A stretch of DNA of 64,000 nt from Blastopirellula retiformator (GTDB taxonomy: Bacteria; Planctomycetota; Planctomycetia; Pirellulales; Pirellulaceae): NCBI RefSeq assembly GCF_007859755.1, contig NZ_SJPF01000003.1, positions 558,001-622,000 on the forward strand, written 5' to 3'. The notes beneath the pieces are model-generated. The model was not told the DNA's origin, did no database searches, and saw only the letters and a program-made list of their open reading frames with translations. Positions within the stretch are counted from its first letter, which is position 1. Every line of letters starts with the position of its first letter. The position numbers and the translations under genes were made by a program. Shown piece by piece: positions 27,149 through 42,453 of the stretch.

Positions 27149-28492
<1,344 letters not shown>

Positions 28493-28956: not shown

Positions 28957-30429
28957 ATGGACTACTCCTCGATTCTTTCGCGATATATCGGCCGAGAGGT
29001 TTGCGTCTCCACCTTTGGACATATCAAGCTCCGCGGCGAAGTCGCGGCCATCTACGACGACTGCGTTCGCCTGATTAACGCCAGTACGCAGGGGGACGCT
29101 GAGGAAATCTCGTGGAACGTCGACAGCGATCATGGCCAAGAGGCGCTCGTCCACTTTCACCACATCGTGGCGATCAGCTGCGGCGACGAAGAACTGCTCG
29201 ACATCCCGGTCGTACCGGACCATGACAAGCCGTCTTGGTTTCAGGAAGCGGAACAGCGCGAGAAAGTGGATCTGCCGACCACCGACAAGCTCGACCCGTG
29301 GCGCACCTACCTCGATCTGGACCGGCTCTCGCTGGAAGTCGGAGAGTCGTTGGTTTCGATCATCGCCCCCGAGTCGAAAGACATTCTCGATCGGATCACC
29401 GCGGTCCGTTGCCAGCTGGCCGACTCGCTCGGAATTCTCGTCCCCAACATTCGGATGTGCGACAATCGCCAACTAGGCGACAACGAGTACCGCTTTCTCA
29501 TCGACGAAAACGAAATCGCCCGCGCCCGGTTCGGCCCGGGACGCTACATCGCGCTCGACATGGGGACGTCGACCGAAACGCTGGACGGCACGCCGGGCGT
29601 CGATCCGACCTTTGGCGGACCTGGCATTTGGATTCGAGCCGATCAGCAGCGCGAGGCGGAAAAAGCGGGCTACCTGGTGATCGAACCGGGCATGCTGCTG
29701 GTAACGCATCTGCAAGAGACGCTGCGTCGGTTCGCCTCCGAGTTGTTGACGCTGGATGACGTTCGCAACCTGATCGAACTGCAGCGCGACTCGCAGTCGG
29801 CCGAGGTCGAAGAGTTGCGGGCCAGCCCACTCTCGTTGTCGACCATTCATGCGGTCCTGGTACGTCTGCTAGAAGAGCAGGTCTCGATCAAGAACTTCCC
29901 CCGCATTCTGGAAACGCTGGTCCGTCATGGTTCGCGTACCGGCGACATCGAGCTCTTGGTCGCCGCGGTCCGCGTTCGTTTGGGTCGGCAGATTTGCCAA
30001 CGTTATCTCGATCGGGATGGTCGCGTCCATGCGATCGGGCTGGAGCCGGAGTTGGAAGAACGGCTGCTCGAGTTGAACGATGCCGGCGCCGGGCGAAAAG
30101 CTCGCCCATGGGTTGAGCGACTGGTCGACAACCTGGTCGACAGCTTCCAGCAATCAGAAGAGCAACAACAGCCGACCGCCCTGGTCACGTCGATTGATCT
30201 CCGCAGCCATCTATGGCGGTTGATGTCGACCAACCTGCCGCGGGTTTCGGTCTTGAGCTTTGCCGAGATCCCTCGCAACACCGACATTTATTGGGAAATG
30301 CGGGTCTCAGGCGACGACATTGGCCTGCCGGAAGGAAGTGCCCGAAGTAGCGGCGGCGCCAAGCCGTATGCCAAAGCGGCGCACCTGATGGAGTCGCTCG
30401 GCGACAAGATGCCGCGGCAGCCTCGCTAG
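28957..30429 (+). CDS. Soluble FlhA/SctV C-terminal domain protein with Sm-like N-terminus
   Basis: 490 residues and no membrane helices. From about residue 105 the sequence follows the cytoplasmic domain of FlhA/SctV, the export-gate protein of flagellar and type III secretion: ITAVRCQLADSLGILVPNIR, NEYRFLIDENEIARARFGPG, WIRADQQREAEKAGYLVIEP, then LLVTHLQETLRRFASELL, ILETLVRHGSRTGDIELLVA and VLSFAEIPRNTDI. The membrane part of FlhA is absent; the first 80 or so residues (LSRYIGREVCVSTFGHIKLR, AAIYDDCVRLINAS) look like an Sm/LSm small beta-barrel. No flagellar or secretion genes are adjacent. The FlhA similarity is strong; the Sm-like call and any function are inference. Confidence 0.8.
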   Translation: MDYSSILSRYIGREVCVSTFGHIKLRGEVAAIYDDCVRLINASTQGDAEEISWNVDSDHGQEALVHFHHIVAISCGDEELLDIPVVPDHDKPSWFQEAEQREKVDLPTTDKLDPWRTYLDLDRLSLEVGESLVSIIAPESKDILDRITAVRCQLADSLGILVPNIRMCDNRQLGDNEYRFLIDENEIARARFGPGRYIALDMGTSTETLDGTPGVDPTFGGPGIWIRADQQREAEKAGYLVIEPGMLLVTHLQETLRRFASELLTLDDVRNLIELQRDSQSAEVEELRASPLSLSTIHAVLVRLLEEQVSIKNFPRILETLVRHGSRTGDIELLVAAVRVRLGRQICQRYLDRDGRVHAIGLEPELEERLLELNDAGAGRKARPWVERLVDNLVDSFQQSEEQQQPTALVTSIDLRSHLWRLMSTNLPRVSVLSFAEIPRNTDIYWEMRVSGDDIGLPEGSARSSGGAKPYAKAAHLMESLGDKMPRQPR

Positions 30430-30511: not shown

Positions 30512-30952
30512 ATGTTTCGTTTCGCCGCCATCCTGCTAACGATGCTGGGGCTCGCCTTGGGCTCGACCAGCAATCTGGTTAGCGCAGCGCCCTTGTGTGC
30601 GGCGCCGGGCGAAACGAATTGTAGCTGCGGTCAGGCGACGTCCGACGCCTGCTGTCATGCAACGATCCCTACTTGCTGCAGTGCGACGGCGGGAAGTTGC
30701 TGTCAGCAAACGAGTAGCGAAAGCCTTGCGGCTCCCATTTGTAACGGATGCCCCTGCTGCTACGAACCGGTTGAGACGCCGCTGGCGCCTTCGTCGGCAA
30801 GCGAAACGCACCTGCCGATCGACTTGCTCGCTTGGACCAGTCCCGTTGCGGTCGCCCCATCGGCGGCGGCAGGTTCCGATTTACAATATCGCGTCGCCCC
30901 GTTCGCGACAGAAGTCTCTCTACAAGTTCTCCATTGTCGTTGGCGGAATTAA
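30512..30952 (+). CDS. Secreted cysteine-rich protein 1
   Basis: 146 residues with a signal peptide (MFRFAAILLTMLGLALGSTS, likely cut after SAA). The next 60 residues hold many cysteines, often paired (NCSCG, ACCHA, TCCSA, SCCQQ, NGCPCCYEP). The C-terminal half has no cysteines until the end. No family is recognised; metal binding or disulfide bonding outside the membrane is the simple reading. It lies 68 bp ahead of a second, richer Cys protein. Confidence 0.7.
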   Translation: MFRFAAILLTMLGLALGSTSNLVSAAPLCAAPGETNCSCGQATSDACCHATIPTCCSATAGSCCQQTSSESLAAPICNGCPCCYEPVETPLAPSSASETHLPIDLLAWTSPVAVAPSAAAGSDLQYRVAPFATEVSLQVLHCRWRN

Positions 30953-31020
30953 ATCGAACGCTGCGCTGACAGCTTCGATTTTGAATTCTGACTTACGATA
31001 TTCTCTTGGAGATACTTACG

Positions 31021-31359
31021 ATGAAAAGCTTAATGGTTTTGGCTGCGCTCTTCTCGTTTTCGTTCGGGATGATTTCTTGGGCTTCCGCCGACGCGGCGCC
31101 GACCGCCAAAAAGTGCGAGTGCGTCAATTGTGCGTGCCCCGACTGCGATGGCGTCAATTGCTCGTGCGACGGCGATTGCAAATGCGAGAAGTGCGGTTGC
31201 GAAATGACGACCGACACGGCGTTGACCGCGACTTCCGCCGCCTGCCCGAACCGCCCGTGCGAAAAAGAGTGCCCGTGCGAAGCGGGTTGCGAGTGCTGTG
31301 ACGGTGAGGTCTGCACCTGCACGGGGTGCGAGTGCACCGCTTGCGACTGCGCGGCGTAA
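31021..31359 (+). CDS. Secreted metallothionein-like cysteine-rich protein 2
   Basis: 112 residues from ATG 31021 (CTTGGAGATACTTACG upstream). Signal peptide MKSLMVLAALFSFSFGMISW and then 24 cysteines in about 75 residues, in two blocks separated by a Thr/Ala linker: KKCECVNCACPDC..CKCEKCGCE and CPCEAGCECC..CECTACDC. The dense CXC and CXXC spacing resembles metallothioneins, which bind Zn, Cu or Cd, but an export signal is unusual for them. Together with the previous gene it forms a likely two-gene unit that ends 16 bp before a MITE-A. Confidence 0.8.
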   Translation: MKSLMVLAALFSFSFGMISWASADAAPTAKKCECVNCACPDCDGVNCSCDGDCKCEKCGCEMTTDTALTATSAACPNRPCEKECPCEAGCECCDGEVCTCTGCECTACDCAA

Positions 31360-39162: not shown

Positions 39163-42100
39163 GTGGCTAAATCGCCCCAAAGACGTTTCTTCTCTTCCGA
39201 TTTTGGGGCAACATACGTGCGCGGGTTCATCCTATCCCTGCTGCTATTCGGTTTGACGGTTCCCGCGGCTGCGCGCGAGTGGCATGCCCGCGAAGGGGGC
39301 TTCTCGGTCAAGGCCGAGCTGGTCGATGTCCGCGACGGCGCCGCCGTCTTGAAACGAGATGACACCGGGCAGGAGATCGCGGTTCCGCTCGCCAAGCTGA
39401 GCCTGGATGACGTCCGATTTGTGCATGCCGAACTCGACCGTCTGACCAAGGCGATCAACGGGGGAATGCCGGCCGACGGCGCAGCGACCGGAGGCGGGTT
39501 CTCGCCACCTCGAGCCCCCGGCAGCGCTCCGAGCGGTGGCGCCGGCGGTGCTCCCGCCGCTGGAGTTGTGGGCAACCCTGCCCCGGTCCCCGCAGCCGCG
39601 ATTCAAGAAGATCTGGGCAACTATCCCACCATGCCGCGGACCGACGCGCAAACGCCGCCGCTGGTACGCTCGGAGCAGTTTGAGTGGCAGGTAACCGTCG
39701 ACGCCAATCCCTACGAGTTTATGCTGCCGCCTGAGAAGACGGTCAAGTCGACCTCGCCGCAGAAAAGCTATTCACTCAAGCCGCAGTTCGCAGAACATCC
39801 GAGCCATTTCGTCTTTTTCGCCGAAGGCTCGAAAGACTTCTTCGCCTACCATTTGCCGACGCAAAAGCTGGTCGGCAAGCTCCACTTCGAATCTTCGCTG
39901 TATAAGAAGATCGCGTATAGCGCAGACGGGCACTACTTCGCCGCCGAGGTTCGTAACGATACGACGCGCAAGACGGGGGTCCAGGTCTGGTCCTTCGCCA
40001 CAGAACGTCTGGTGCGAACGATCACTCCCAGCAGCGACAGTTTTTATCTGACCGCGATCCGCTTTGCCGGGCCCGATCGGATTCTGATCGCCGAACCGAA
40101 CGACCATGCGATCCGTTGTTACGACATCGCCAGTGGTCGCATGATTAGTCAGATTCGCGTTGGCAGCTTCTTCCAAGAAGCTCAGCTGGCCGTCAGCCCT
40201 GGCGGCGCCTATGTCGCCGTCGCGACTTCGACCGACAAGATGGTGCACATTTACGACCTGCGGACCGGGGTTGAAGCGGGCCAGGTCGGCGGCAAGGCGC
40301 AGCTTCCCGGTTTCGCTTCGCCGCAACTGGTCAGCTTTTCCCCCGATGGCGAAGAGTTGCTGCTCTACTCCAATTCTGGAGGGGGCAAGCACTTGATCAC
40401 GTGGGACATGCGAACCGGCGAGAAAGGGGCCGAGTTGCAGTTCGACGAAGATCCTGGCCGTAAGGGGCCGGCGGGATTTTCTTATCATGATCGACCGATC
40501 GAATGGCGTCCCGATCGCAGCGGCTGGCTGATCGGCGGCTGGGTATTGGTGGAGCGGGGTTCGCCTGACATCGTCTGGATTGACGATACGCAGAAGTCGT
40601 CAAGCGACGTGGGCCAGCCGCGGCGGTTTGTCGACAACAATCGCCTGCTCGACTTCGCCAGCGACAGTGATCGCCGGATGACGATGGCCCTCACGGCGAT
40701 TTCTAACGACACCATCGCGTCCAACCGCGAGATGATCGCCAGCGGCGCGACCGCTTTTGACAATGGATTGCCGCCGCTCACGCCGATCGTCGATGACCGG
40801 ATTCAGGAGATCGTTACCGACATCCAATGGAAGTACCAGCCGGACGAGGCCCCAGCGGTTGCCGACGCGAGCCTACACGACGGCGCTCGAATCATCGCCA
40901 ACTTCGCCCAGCTGGGGCAGATGGTGATGGCCCGCACCGCCAATCGCGCCTTGATCGGACTTCGCGAACCCGACGGCAATCGCCGCCAACGCGGCCTGAC
41001 GACGATCGAAGAGCAATACTTTGACCTGGTCGATTTGCAGACCGGCAAGCCGCTGATGCGGACCACGCTGCCCTTTGCGACTCTTTTGAAGGCGGTCGAT
41101 CCGACCGGCAGTTGGGGCGCTTTTGCCGACAAGGCGAACCAAGACCGCATCGATTTGTTCGACTTGGCGACCGGCAAGCCGGCGGTCGCGTTTCGCCCGT
41201 TTCAGAACAGCGATGGCGAAATCGCGACAATGGCGTTCGGTTCCGACAAGTCGACGCTTTGGGTCTTGTCGAAAAAAGGAGAACTGACGCAATGGAAGCT
41301 GCCGGAGTGTCGCGTCGTCGCCCGGCGGATGTATGGCGCTTCGACTCGGTTGCAAGCGTCCCCCAGCGGCCATACGCTCTGCGTCGCTTCGCCGCAAAAG
41401 ATGGAATTGCTCGACGCCGACTCGGGGGCGATGCTCGGCACGCTGGCCAGTCCGGCGATCGAGAAGTTTACCGCCGCCGGCTACATGGCGTTCTCCGATG
41501 ACGGCCGCAAGTTGGCGATGGCCTGCTATGCCGGAACCGATGCCCAGCGCATCCTCGTGTGGGACTTGGTCGCCAACAATGTCGACAAATCGTTCCCATT
41601 TCCCTACAAGCCGCTGGCGATCTCGTGGGGAGACGATGACGTGCTCTTGGTCAAAGCGTTCTCGAGGCTGCCGGAGCTGACAGTCGCGGCGCACCTGGTG
41701 GCGGTCCATCTGCCGTCGGAACGGATTGGTTGGAATTACCTGTTGCCGTTTGGCGGCGTCGGCTATCGCGGTTCGGATGGACGGCAGTGGTACGTCTCTG
41801 GCGACGCGAACCAAACCGATTCAACGGTCCGTGCGGTTCGTCTGCCGCAGCCGCAAGACGCCGAGCTGATTAACGATCTGCAGCCGCTTGCTCCGCTTCT
41901 TTCCAGCGGCGATCGACTGGCGATTCGCGTCGACGCCGAGATCCCCACGATCAACATCGAGCGGAACGAATTGGCCAAAGAACTGCAGAGTTTGTATCTC
42001 GCCAAGGCGATCAAGGCGGGCTACAAACCAGACCCCAGCGCCGGGCATGTGCTAACGATCGAAGTGCGAGAGAAACTGACGGCAGAGACGCTACGGTTGC

Positions 42101-42453
42101 GCATCATCGGGCGGTTCTCCGTCGAATCGATCCAGAAGACCGAAGTATTCGCCACGCTGCGGATCGCCAATGGGGACGGCAAGCTGATCTGGGCCGATGA
42201 GATTCGGGAAAAAACCGAAGCCGATCTGGCCCGCAAAGGAATTCCGCCCGGCGTCGGCGTGTCGGAATTCTTCCGCTTGCAGCAGTGGCGCAACGTGCTG
42301 CAATGGATTGAAGATGCGAAAGTTCCGACGGCGATTTTCGACGCTAGTTCAATCACCGGCGCCGGCGTCTCGGTGATGACGGTCAACGGCGTCGAGGTGC
42401 GGACGAATTTGAACATCCCGGTGAATAATCAGCCGGGCGATCAGGCGATCTAG
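39163..42453 (+). CDS. SHD1-domain protein with large beta-propeller
   Basis: 1096 residues from GTG 39163 (GTCGGGGGTGAC ahead). A signal or anchor helix (FILSLLLFGLTVPAAA) is followed by an SHD1-like domain (REWHAREGGFSVKAELVDVR, LKRDDTGQEIAVPLAKLSLD), a Gly/Pro/Ala linker, and then about 700 residues of WD40-like repeats: KKIAYSADGHYFAAEVRND, QLAVSPGGAYVAVATS, VSFSPDGEELLLYSNSGG, YMAFSDDGRKLAMACYAG. The C-terminal 150 residues form another domain. This SHD1-plus-propeller layout is common in planctomycetes; function is unknown, probably a protein-binding scaffold outside the inner membrane. Confidence 0.85.
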   Translation: MAKSPQRRFFSSDFGATYVRGFILSLLLFGLTVPAAAREWHAREGGFSVKAELVDVRDGAAVLKRDDTGQEIAVPLAKLSLDDVRFVHAELDRLTKAINGGMPADGAATGGGFSPPRAPGSAPSGGAGGAPAAGVVGNPAPVPAAAIQEDLGNYPTMPRTDAQTPPLVRSEQFEWQVTVDANPYEFMLPPEKTVKSTSPQKSYSLKPQFAEHPSHFVFFAEGSKDFFAYHLPTQKLVGKLHFESSLYKKIAYSADGHYFAAEVRNDTTRKTGVQVWSFATERLVRTITPSSDSFYLTAIRFAGPDRILIAEPNDHAIRCYDIASGRMISQIRVGSFFQEAQLAVSPGGAYVAVATSTDKMVHIYDLRTGVEAGQVGGKAQLPGFASPQLVSFSPDGEELLLYSNSGGGKHLITWDMRTGEKGAELQFDEDPGRKGPAGFSYHDRPIEWRPDRSGWLIGGWVLVERGSPDIVWIDDTQKSSSDVGQPRRFVDNNRLLDFASDSDRRMTMALTAISNDTIASNREMIASGATAFDNGLPPLTPIVDDRIQEIVTDIQWKYQPDEAPAVADASLHDGARIIANFAQLGQMVMARTANRALIGLREPDGNRRQRGLTTIEEQYFDLVDLQTGKPLMRTTLPFATLLKAVDPTGSWGAFADKANQDRIDLFDLATGKPAVAFRPFQNSDGEIATMAFGSDKSTLWVLSKKGELTQWKLPECRVVARRMYGASTRLQASPSGHTLCVASPQKMELLDADSGAMLGTLASPAIEKFTAAGYMAFSDDGRKLAMACYAGTDAQRILVWDLVANNVDKSFPFPYKPLAISWGDDDVLLVKAFSRLPELTVAAHLVAVHLPSERIGWNYLLPFGGVGYRGSDGRQWYVSGDANQTDSTVRAVRLPQPQDAELINDLQPLAPLLSSGDRLAIRVDAEIPTINIERNELAKELQSLYLAKAIKAGYKPDPSAGHVLTIEVREKLTAETLRLRIIGRFSVESIQKTEVFATLRIANGDGKLIWADEIREKTEADLARKGIPPGVGVSEFFRLQQWRNVLQWIEDAKVPTAIFDASSITGAGVSVMTVNGVEVRTNLNIPVNNQPGDQAI

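Follow-up and report, generated by a model that had tools for sequence, protein, structure and literature searches.

A conserved, membrane-free FlhA variant with a predicted Sm-like N-terminal domain in Blastopirellula retiformator and related bacteria

Introduction

FlhA rings are nonamers, whereas the rings formed by Sm proteins and Hfq contain six or seven subunits. To our knowledge, the docking ring of FlhA is otherwise known only as the lower half of the membrane export gate. Among other components of the gate, FlhX is a stand-alone homologue of the cytoplasmic domain of FlhB. It has been counted among the proteins of the fT3SS (PMC10746217). In Salmonella, the chaperones FlgN, FliS and FliT share a single hydrophobic docking cleft on the FlhA cytoplasmic domain, in which Asp456 bonds a chaperone tyrosine and Phe459 and Thr490 are also cleft residues (PMC5932034; PMC8166844). 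The linker residue Trp354 is required for ring formation and for gating of the chaperone site, and can occupy the cleft of the neighbouring subunit (PMC8166844). The linker residues E351 and D356 likewise stabilise the ring. In other bacteria, FlhA-bound chaperone complexes connect to post-transcriptional control through FliW (PMC6070490).

The gene considered here lies in a window of 64,000 nucleotides of the Blastopirellula retiformator genome, the whole stretch of DNA that was analysed, and encodes a variant of the FlhA family with a conserved and apparently undescribed architecture; an earlier note on the sequence had proposed that the architecture would be new. A stand-alone or Sm-fused FlhA was described nowhere in the literature searched, which had most subscription journals outside its coverage. 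The reading that we favour, with a probability of roughly 0.4, is that the protein would assemble into rings and offer flagellar chaperone-cargo complexes a soluble docking platform, an Sm-like barrel replacing the membrane domain as the oligomerising element.

Architecture of the gene

The open reading frame at 28957-30429 (+) starts with ATG and encodes 490 residues, divided as follows.

28957..30429, + strand: whole gene, with Sm-like domain, linker, FlhA cytoplasmic domain and tail (490 aa, stop included)
28957..29187, + strand: predicted Sm-like small beta-barrel domain, residues 1-77 (AlphaFold2 models; Foldseek and VIA-align matches to Sm/LSm; dN/dS 0.02-0.11)
29092..29139, + strand: acidic disordered loop between strands 3 and 4, residues 46-61 (pLDDT <50 at residues 47-59; net charge -5)
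29188..29310, + strand: flexible linker, residues 78-118 (pLDDT <50 at residues 78-121; dN/dS 0.06-0.8, mostly 0.2-0.5)
29299-29301, + strand: W115 of the linker (gapless alignment to Salmonella FlhA W354)
29311..30321, + strand: FlhA cytoplasmic domain D1-D4, residues 119-455 (FHIPEP E 4e-77; VIA-align to 6ch1)
29602..29613, + strand: DPTF, residues 216-219, equivalents of Salmonella D456 and F459 (alignment)
29704..29709, + strand: TH, residues 250-251, with T250 equivalent to Salmonella T490 (alignment)
30322..30426, + strand: low-confidence C-terminal tail with the conserved end PRQPR (pLDDT <50 at residues 461-490; alignment)

The Pfam profile FHIPEP (PF00771) matches residues 103-442 with 260.6 bits (E 4.2e-77; cut-off 29.1), and the match covers profile positions 312-656 only, which represent the cytoplasmic part, leaving positions 1-311 unmatched. 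The NCBIfam FlhA profile TIGR01398 matches with E 4e-83, its 279.8 bits falling below the cut-off of 772.1 curated for this full-length equivalog, and the best PDB sequence matches are FlhA cytoplasmic domains (E 1e-47). The earlier note had assigned the C-terminal 380 residues to an FlhA/SctV cytoplasmic domain; the FlhA assignment stands, and the length is corrected to about 340 residues. It had also held that some 80 residues replace the membrane part, in agreement with the domain of about 77 residues that precedes the FlhA part. Because hydropathy nowhere exceeds 1.18 in a Kyte-Doolittle scan of every 19-residue window, the protein lacks a membrane helix. An intact, ordinary flhA with a frame of 726 residues is present elsewhere in the same genome (G000, C1:988265-990232), so the stand-alone form is an additional gene.

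The N-terminal domain

Structure was predicted with AlphaFold2 for the full-length protein, on an alignment of 16 family members, and for the domain alone, with 17 members. The full-length model begins with a helix at residues 3-10, followed by strands at 14-19, 24-32, 36-45, 62-66 and 70-75, and the domain-alone model also contains a short helix and five strands. This predicted order of elements, a helix and then a five-stranded bent beta-barrel, is that of Sm proteins. When the full-length model was compared with known structures by VIA-align, residues 1-84 were placed on Sm/LSm chains (1m5q, Z 10.5, rmsd 2.0 A over 64 residues) and on Hfq (4juv, Z 10.0, rmsd 1.7 A over 61 residues). For the domain alone, the top 50 Foldseek matches were all Sm/LSm chains (probability 1.00, best E 4.8e-4), and VIA-align superimposed it on a methanogen SmAP with Z 9.5; a single designed SH3-like barrel featured in the first 50 of its matches. 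Z-scores of 9-10 are good for a 77-residue barrel, yet the fold is a simple one.

No sequence profile for Sm or Hfq matched the N-terminal domain significantly, a PDB profile search returned no Sm match, and hhalign against small Hfq and SmAP alignments of only a few sequences gave probabilities <5%. The Hfq profile PF17209 had no match anywhere in the source genome, the stand-alone FlhA locus included. Of the two halves of the profile check proposed earlier, only that with FHIPEP reached significance. The suggestion that the N-terminus resembles an Sm fold is nevertheless upheld by the predicted structure, for which the aligners select Sm/LSm chains almost exclusively, and membership of the Sm superfamily, though probable, is unproven.

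The residues of the domain bear on an alternative in which the protein would be an RNA-linked export regulator: the Sm-like ring would bind RNA, for example flagellin mRNA, while the FlhA part would sense whether chaperones are free or loaded. In bacteria that lack Hfq, this would tie the translation of flagellin, or the position of its mRNA, to the capacity for export. Sm/LSm proteins and Hfq are the closest structural matches; across the 15 less divergent sequences of the Sm-like alignment, Arg9, Arg13 and Asp35 do not vary; and H68, the equivalent of Hfq H57 by our own alignment, is kept in four genera (g1, g20, g62 and g87). Against this reading, the domain carries a net charge of -7, and the canonical Sm contacts with RNA (Asn of Sm1, Arg-Gly of Sm2 and Lys56 of Hfq) are absent by the same kind of alignment. 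The loop between strands 3 and 4 varies in length and sequence across the family. Judged from charge and residues, RNA binding by the Sm-like domain is possible and was rated below plain oligomerisation.

The FlhA domain and its chaperone cleft

VIA-align superimposed model residues 113-453 on FlhA 6ch1 with Z 34.1 and rmsd 3.0 over 331 residues. The equivalents of D456, F459 and T490 are identical (Asp, Phe, Thr) in genera g1, g20, g62 and g69 and altered in g87 (E, Y, V), in g39 of family f6 (A, Y, L) and in g23 (E, S, G). A tryptophan stands at the spacing of W354 in g1, g20 and g62; 37 of the 39 ordinary FlhA proteins compared have Ile or Val at this position. The linker residues E351 and D356 of Salmonella are not preserved in the stand-alone form. 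In g62 the tail ends in PPRRPR instead of PRQPR. Loss of the GYXLI tyrosine was considered as a sign of lost export function and was dropped, since the ordinary FlhA of these bacteria lacks this tyrosine too.

The ring-type linker tryptophan in the FlhA domain would also suit a purely negative regulator, which would mix into or compete with the real FlhA ring as a dominant-negative decoy and have no holding or delivery role; being soluble, the protein could occupy chaperones away from the gate. However, its FlhA domain is only about 34% identical to that of the host's own FlhA, so that hetero-rings are doubtful. The conservation of its N-terminal domain, moreover, matches that of the FlhA domain, so that it is no passive, truncated decoy. 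We regard this reading as quite improbable.

Distribution, selection and origin

The architecture was found in 18 genomes, that is, in 17 besides the source genome, belonging to seven genera of one order. The carriers comprise four genomes of g1, including the source (81-88% identity), one of g20 (G022, 59%) and nine of g62 (about 55%), together with divergent members in g87 (G229, 35%) and in g39 of another family, f6 (G041, about 28%); g69 (G103) and g23 (G078) also have both domains. Searches with the Sm-like domain in 396 genomes of the order yielded 16 carriers, to which a family search added G022 and G088, and a phylum sample of 392 genomes contained no carrier outside the same family. 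Wherever it was found in these two surveys, the Sm-like domain was fused to an FlhA domain. Most flagellated relatives lack the stand-alone gene.

Within genera, dN/dS was 0.02-0.11 for the Sm-like domain and 0.03-0.10 for the FlhA domain, with mostly 0.2-0.5 for the linker, while synonymous sites were strongly diverged (dS often >1). These values of about 0.02-0.1 indicate strong purifying selection on both domains, and the protein can be pictured as two folded domains under selection that a loose tether connects.

When FlhA domains were placed in a maximum-likelihood tree, the ordinary proteins of g1, g20 and g62 fell in the expected clade. The stand-alone forms fell outside the clade that ordinary FlhA from related genomes makes up (99/98), and long branches lead to the most divergent of them. 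By this separation, the stand-alone protein is an old paralogue. Constraining all stand-alone forms to one clade was not rejected (p-AU 0.55) and gave a slightly better likelihood; since these forms also share the N-terminal domain, a single old origin followed by patchy retention is favoured, within the limits that long branches set on such a test. A divergent full-length FlhA, L010 (G011:C286:2071-3177), has a cytoplasmic domain that branches next to the stand-alone forms, and could be what remains of the parent from which these arose.

An artefact or decaying pseudogene, in the form of a truncated or mis-assembled flhA, would account for a frame without the membrane half of FlhA, and mis-assembly was one of two outcomes named in the earlier note as undoing its interpretation, the other being an N-terminus unlike Sm folds; neither was observed. 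The same architecture in full-length orthologues of 17 further genomes, the intact flhA elsewhere in the genome, the branch distinct from ordinary FlhA and the low dN/dS of both domains leave this explanation effectively ruled out. The protein is genuine and conserved, and not a broken or mis-assembled flhA.

Flagellar genes and RNA-binding proteins of the hosts

A full FlhA accompanies the stand-alone gene in all 18 genomes. Hosts in the core genera also encode FliS, FliW and two to five flagellin-type genes, many of them >1000 aa. A survey of the source genome for flagella, proposed earlier, found full FlhA, FliS, FliW and flagellins, which marks this host as flagellated; its flagellin-type frames of 1075-1296 codons (C3:894628, C2:1082370 and C3:900044) are much longer than usual flagellins. 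In G041 of family f6 (L033), both FlhA types and FliW are present, and neither flagellin nor FliS was detected. The loss of cleft residues in this family, taken with the missing flagellin and FliS, fits a docking role that was lost there, or a different role.

Hfq was found in none of 30 genomes with or without the stand-alone gene, in a search whose control detected it in E. coli and others. RNA binding by the Sm-like domain is conceivable because these genomes have no detectable Hfq, and the proposal of an RNA-linked regulator gains from the tie between FlhA-bound chaperones and post-transcriptional control that FliW provides elsewhere. Relatives without the gene also lack Hfq, however, so the stand-alone protein is not a specific filler of the Hfq gap, and most of these genomes already encode FliW, whether or not they carry the gene. 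Neither co-occurrence of the gene with FliW, FliS or Hfq nor replacement of any of them emerged, as genomes with and without it showed no clear contrast. An RNA-linked export regulator is, on balance, decidedly unlikely. A more specific version, in which a soluble machine made of an Sm-type RNA-binding ring fused to an export-gate docking ring would hold flagellin mRNA or a small RNA on one face and chaperone-flagellin on the other, and would thereby couple flagellin synthesis directly to export in bacteria without Hfq, is less probable again.

Genomic neighbourhood

The earlier observation that no flagellar or type III gene lies nearby holds for the approximately 40 window proteins scanned, and flagellar genes adjoin the stand-alone gene in none of the genomes examined. 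Other genes of the window, such as those for DUF1559 proteins, point to a planctomycete of the Pirellulales type. A PIN-PhoH gene (27149-28492, -) lies upstream in divergent orientation across a gap of 464 bases, and this adjacency recurs in g1, g20 and g62 (L034, L035-L037, L092 and L094) and not in g87, g69, g23 or f6; neighbours differ outside the first three genera. Within the PhoH genes of g1, codons 181-240 (about 27773-27952, -) have a silent-site divergence of 0.13-0.14, against about 0.4 around them.

Recruitment to a non-flagellar process, with the FlhA fold serving as a mere scaffold, would explain the absence of flagellar neighbours and the PIN-PhoH protein as a recurring neighbour. 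The fast divergence and lost cleft residues of g87, f6 and g23, and the retention of the gene in G041, where flagellin and FliS went undetected, also favour it; for these divergent members, the role unrelated to secretion that the earlier note had considered may apply. Yet the cleft residues are identical in the core genera, a full-length FlhA is always found alongside, G041 itself still has full FlhA and FliW, and the PhoH adjacency, limited to three genera, is that of divergent genes well apart. We consider such a recruitment rather unlikely.

In g62 (L041-L049), the 5' leader, about 120 bases upstream of the start, and the first 30 codons stand out by their conservation at silent sites; at four-fold sites, 0.16 of comparisons show a difference here, and about 0.55 do so farther into the gene. 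A conserved RNA leader was nevertheless rejected, as the PhoH gene of g62 shows the same conservation, the stand-alone gene of g1 does not, hardly any covariation was seen, and among the genomes searched the leader pattern was confined to g62, with one copy in each.

Directly downstream of the stand-alone gene, 30512-30952 and 31006-31359 (+) encode two small cysteine-rich proteins with signal-like N-termini, the first without a Pfam match. Farther along the window, the product of 39163-42450 (+), about 1096 aa long, matches two kinds of domain better known from eukaryotes, SLA1 homology domain 1 and WD40 propellers.

A proposed soluble docking platform

In the docking-platform reading, the Sm-like barrel would oligomerise the protein in place of the membrane domain and give a soluble ring of six or seven subunits, or of nine if the number were set by the FlhA part. 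The FlhA part would bind chaperone-cargo complexes, such as FliS-flagellin, through the cleft used at the export gate, and the assembly could then act as a cytosolic holding or delivery platform, or as a competitor, that tunes when very large flagellins arrive at the gate. The oligomer, the chaperone binding and the export role are what we infer from the domains; given the mismatch between nonameric FlhA and six- or seven-subunit Sm/Hfq rings, a joined double ring is a hypothesis.

A docking platform is favoured because the cleft residues and the W354-equivalent tryptophan are kept and the hosts have FliS, FliW and large flagellins. Identity of the cleft in the core genera despite strongly diverged synonymous sites counts for it, as do the FlhA cytoplasmic fold, the full FlhA in 18/18 genomes and an Sm-like domain that was never found without the FlhA part. 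Counting against it are the position of the gene apart from flagellar genes, the altered cleft in g87, g39 and g23, the carrier G041 without detected flagellin or FliS, the replaced E351 and D356, and the majority of flagellated relatives, which lack the gene.

A conserved, membrane-free version mounted on an Sm-like barrel would mean that the docking domain can serve at places other than the gate. In such a protein, nature would provide a case in which to study what determines ring size, nine for FlhA as against six or seven for Sm/Hfq, and how the traffic of chaperones with their cargo is buffered. Should the Sm-like part bind RNA, the export of flagellar proteins would be linked to RNA control in bacteria in which no Hfq was detected.

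Comparison with known systems

The nearest relative in sequence is FlhA of the flagellar export gate (PF00771, TIGR01398; 3A5I, 6CH1-3, 7AMY), with which the stand-alone protein shares the whole of D1-D4 and, in the core genera, the chaperone-docking residues. It differs from FlhA in having an Sm-like barrel instead of the membrane domain, a tail that ends in PRxPR, its modest identity to the host's own FlhA and a gene outside the flagellar cluster. SctV of injectisomes (YscV/InvA/EscV) has the same cytoplasmic fold (Z 22-30), but its profile TIGR01399 scores below that of FlhA (E 1.6e-40 versus 4e-83). An injectisome component was rejected, as FlhA profiles far outscore SctV and no type III gene was present among the window proteins scanned. 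A contig scan queried with the single protein retrieved gammaproteobacterial FlhA only.

The N-terminal domain shares with Sm/LSm/SmAP proteins and Hfq, its best structural matches, the predicted helix and five-strand barrel, and differs from them in being acidic, in its long and variable loop between strands 3 and 4 and in its fusion to a 340-residue FlhA domain. Residues 5-50 also matched DUF6897 (PF21838, E 0.003) and the MM0924 family (NF041655, E 0.0002) weakly and below the curated cut-offs; both profiles are short (57-58 positions) and have no assigned function. Nearest in kind is FlhX, an earlier example of an export-gate protein whose cytoplasmic part also exists as a soluble protein by itself, although FlhX is of the FlhB type and has no Sm-like domain.
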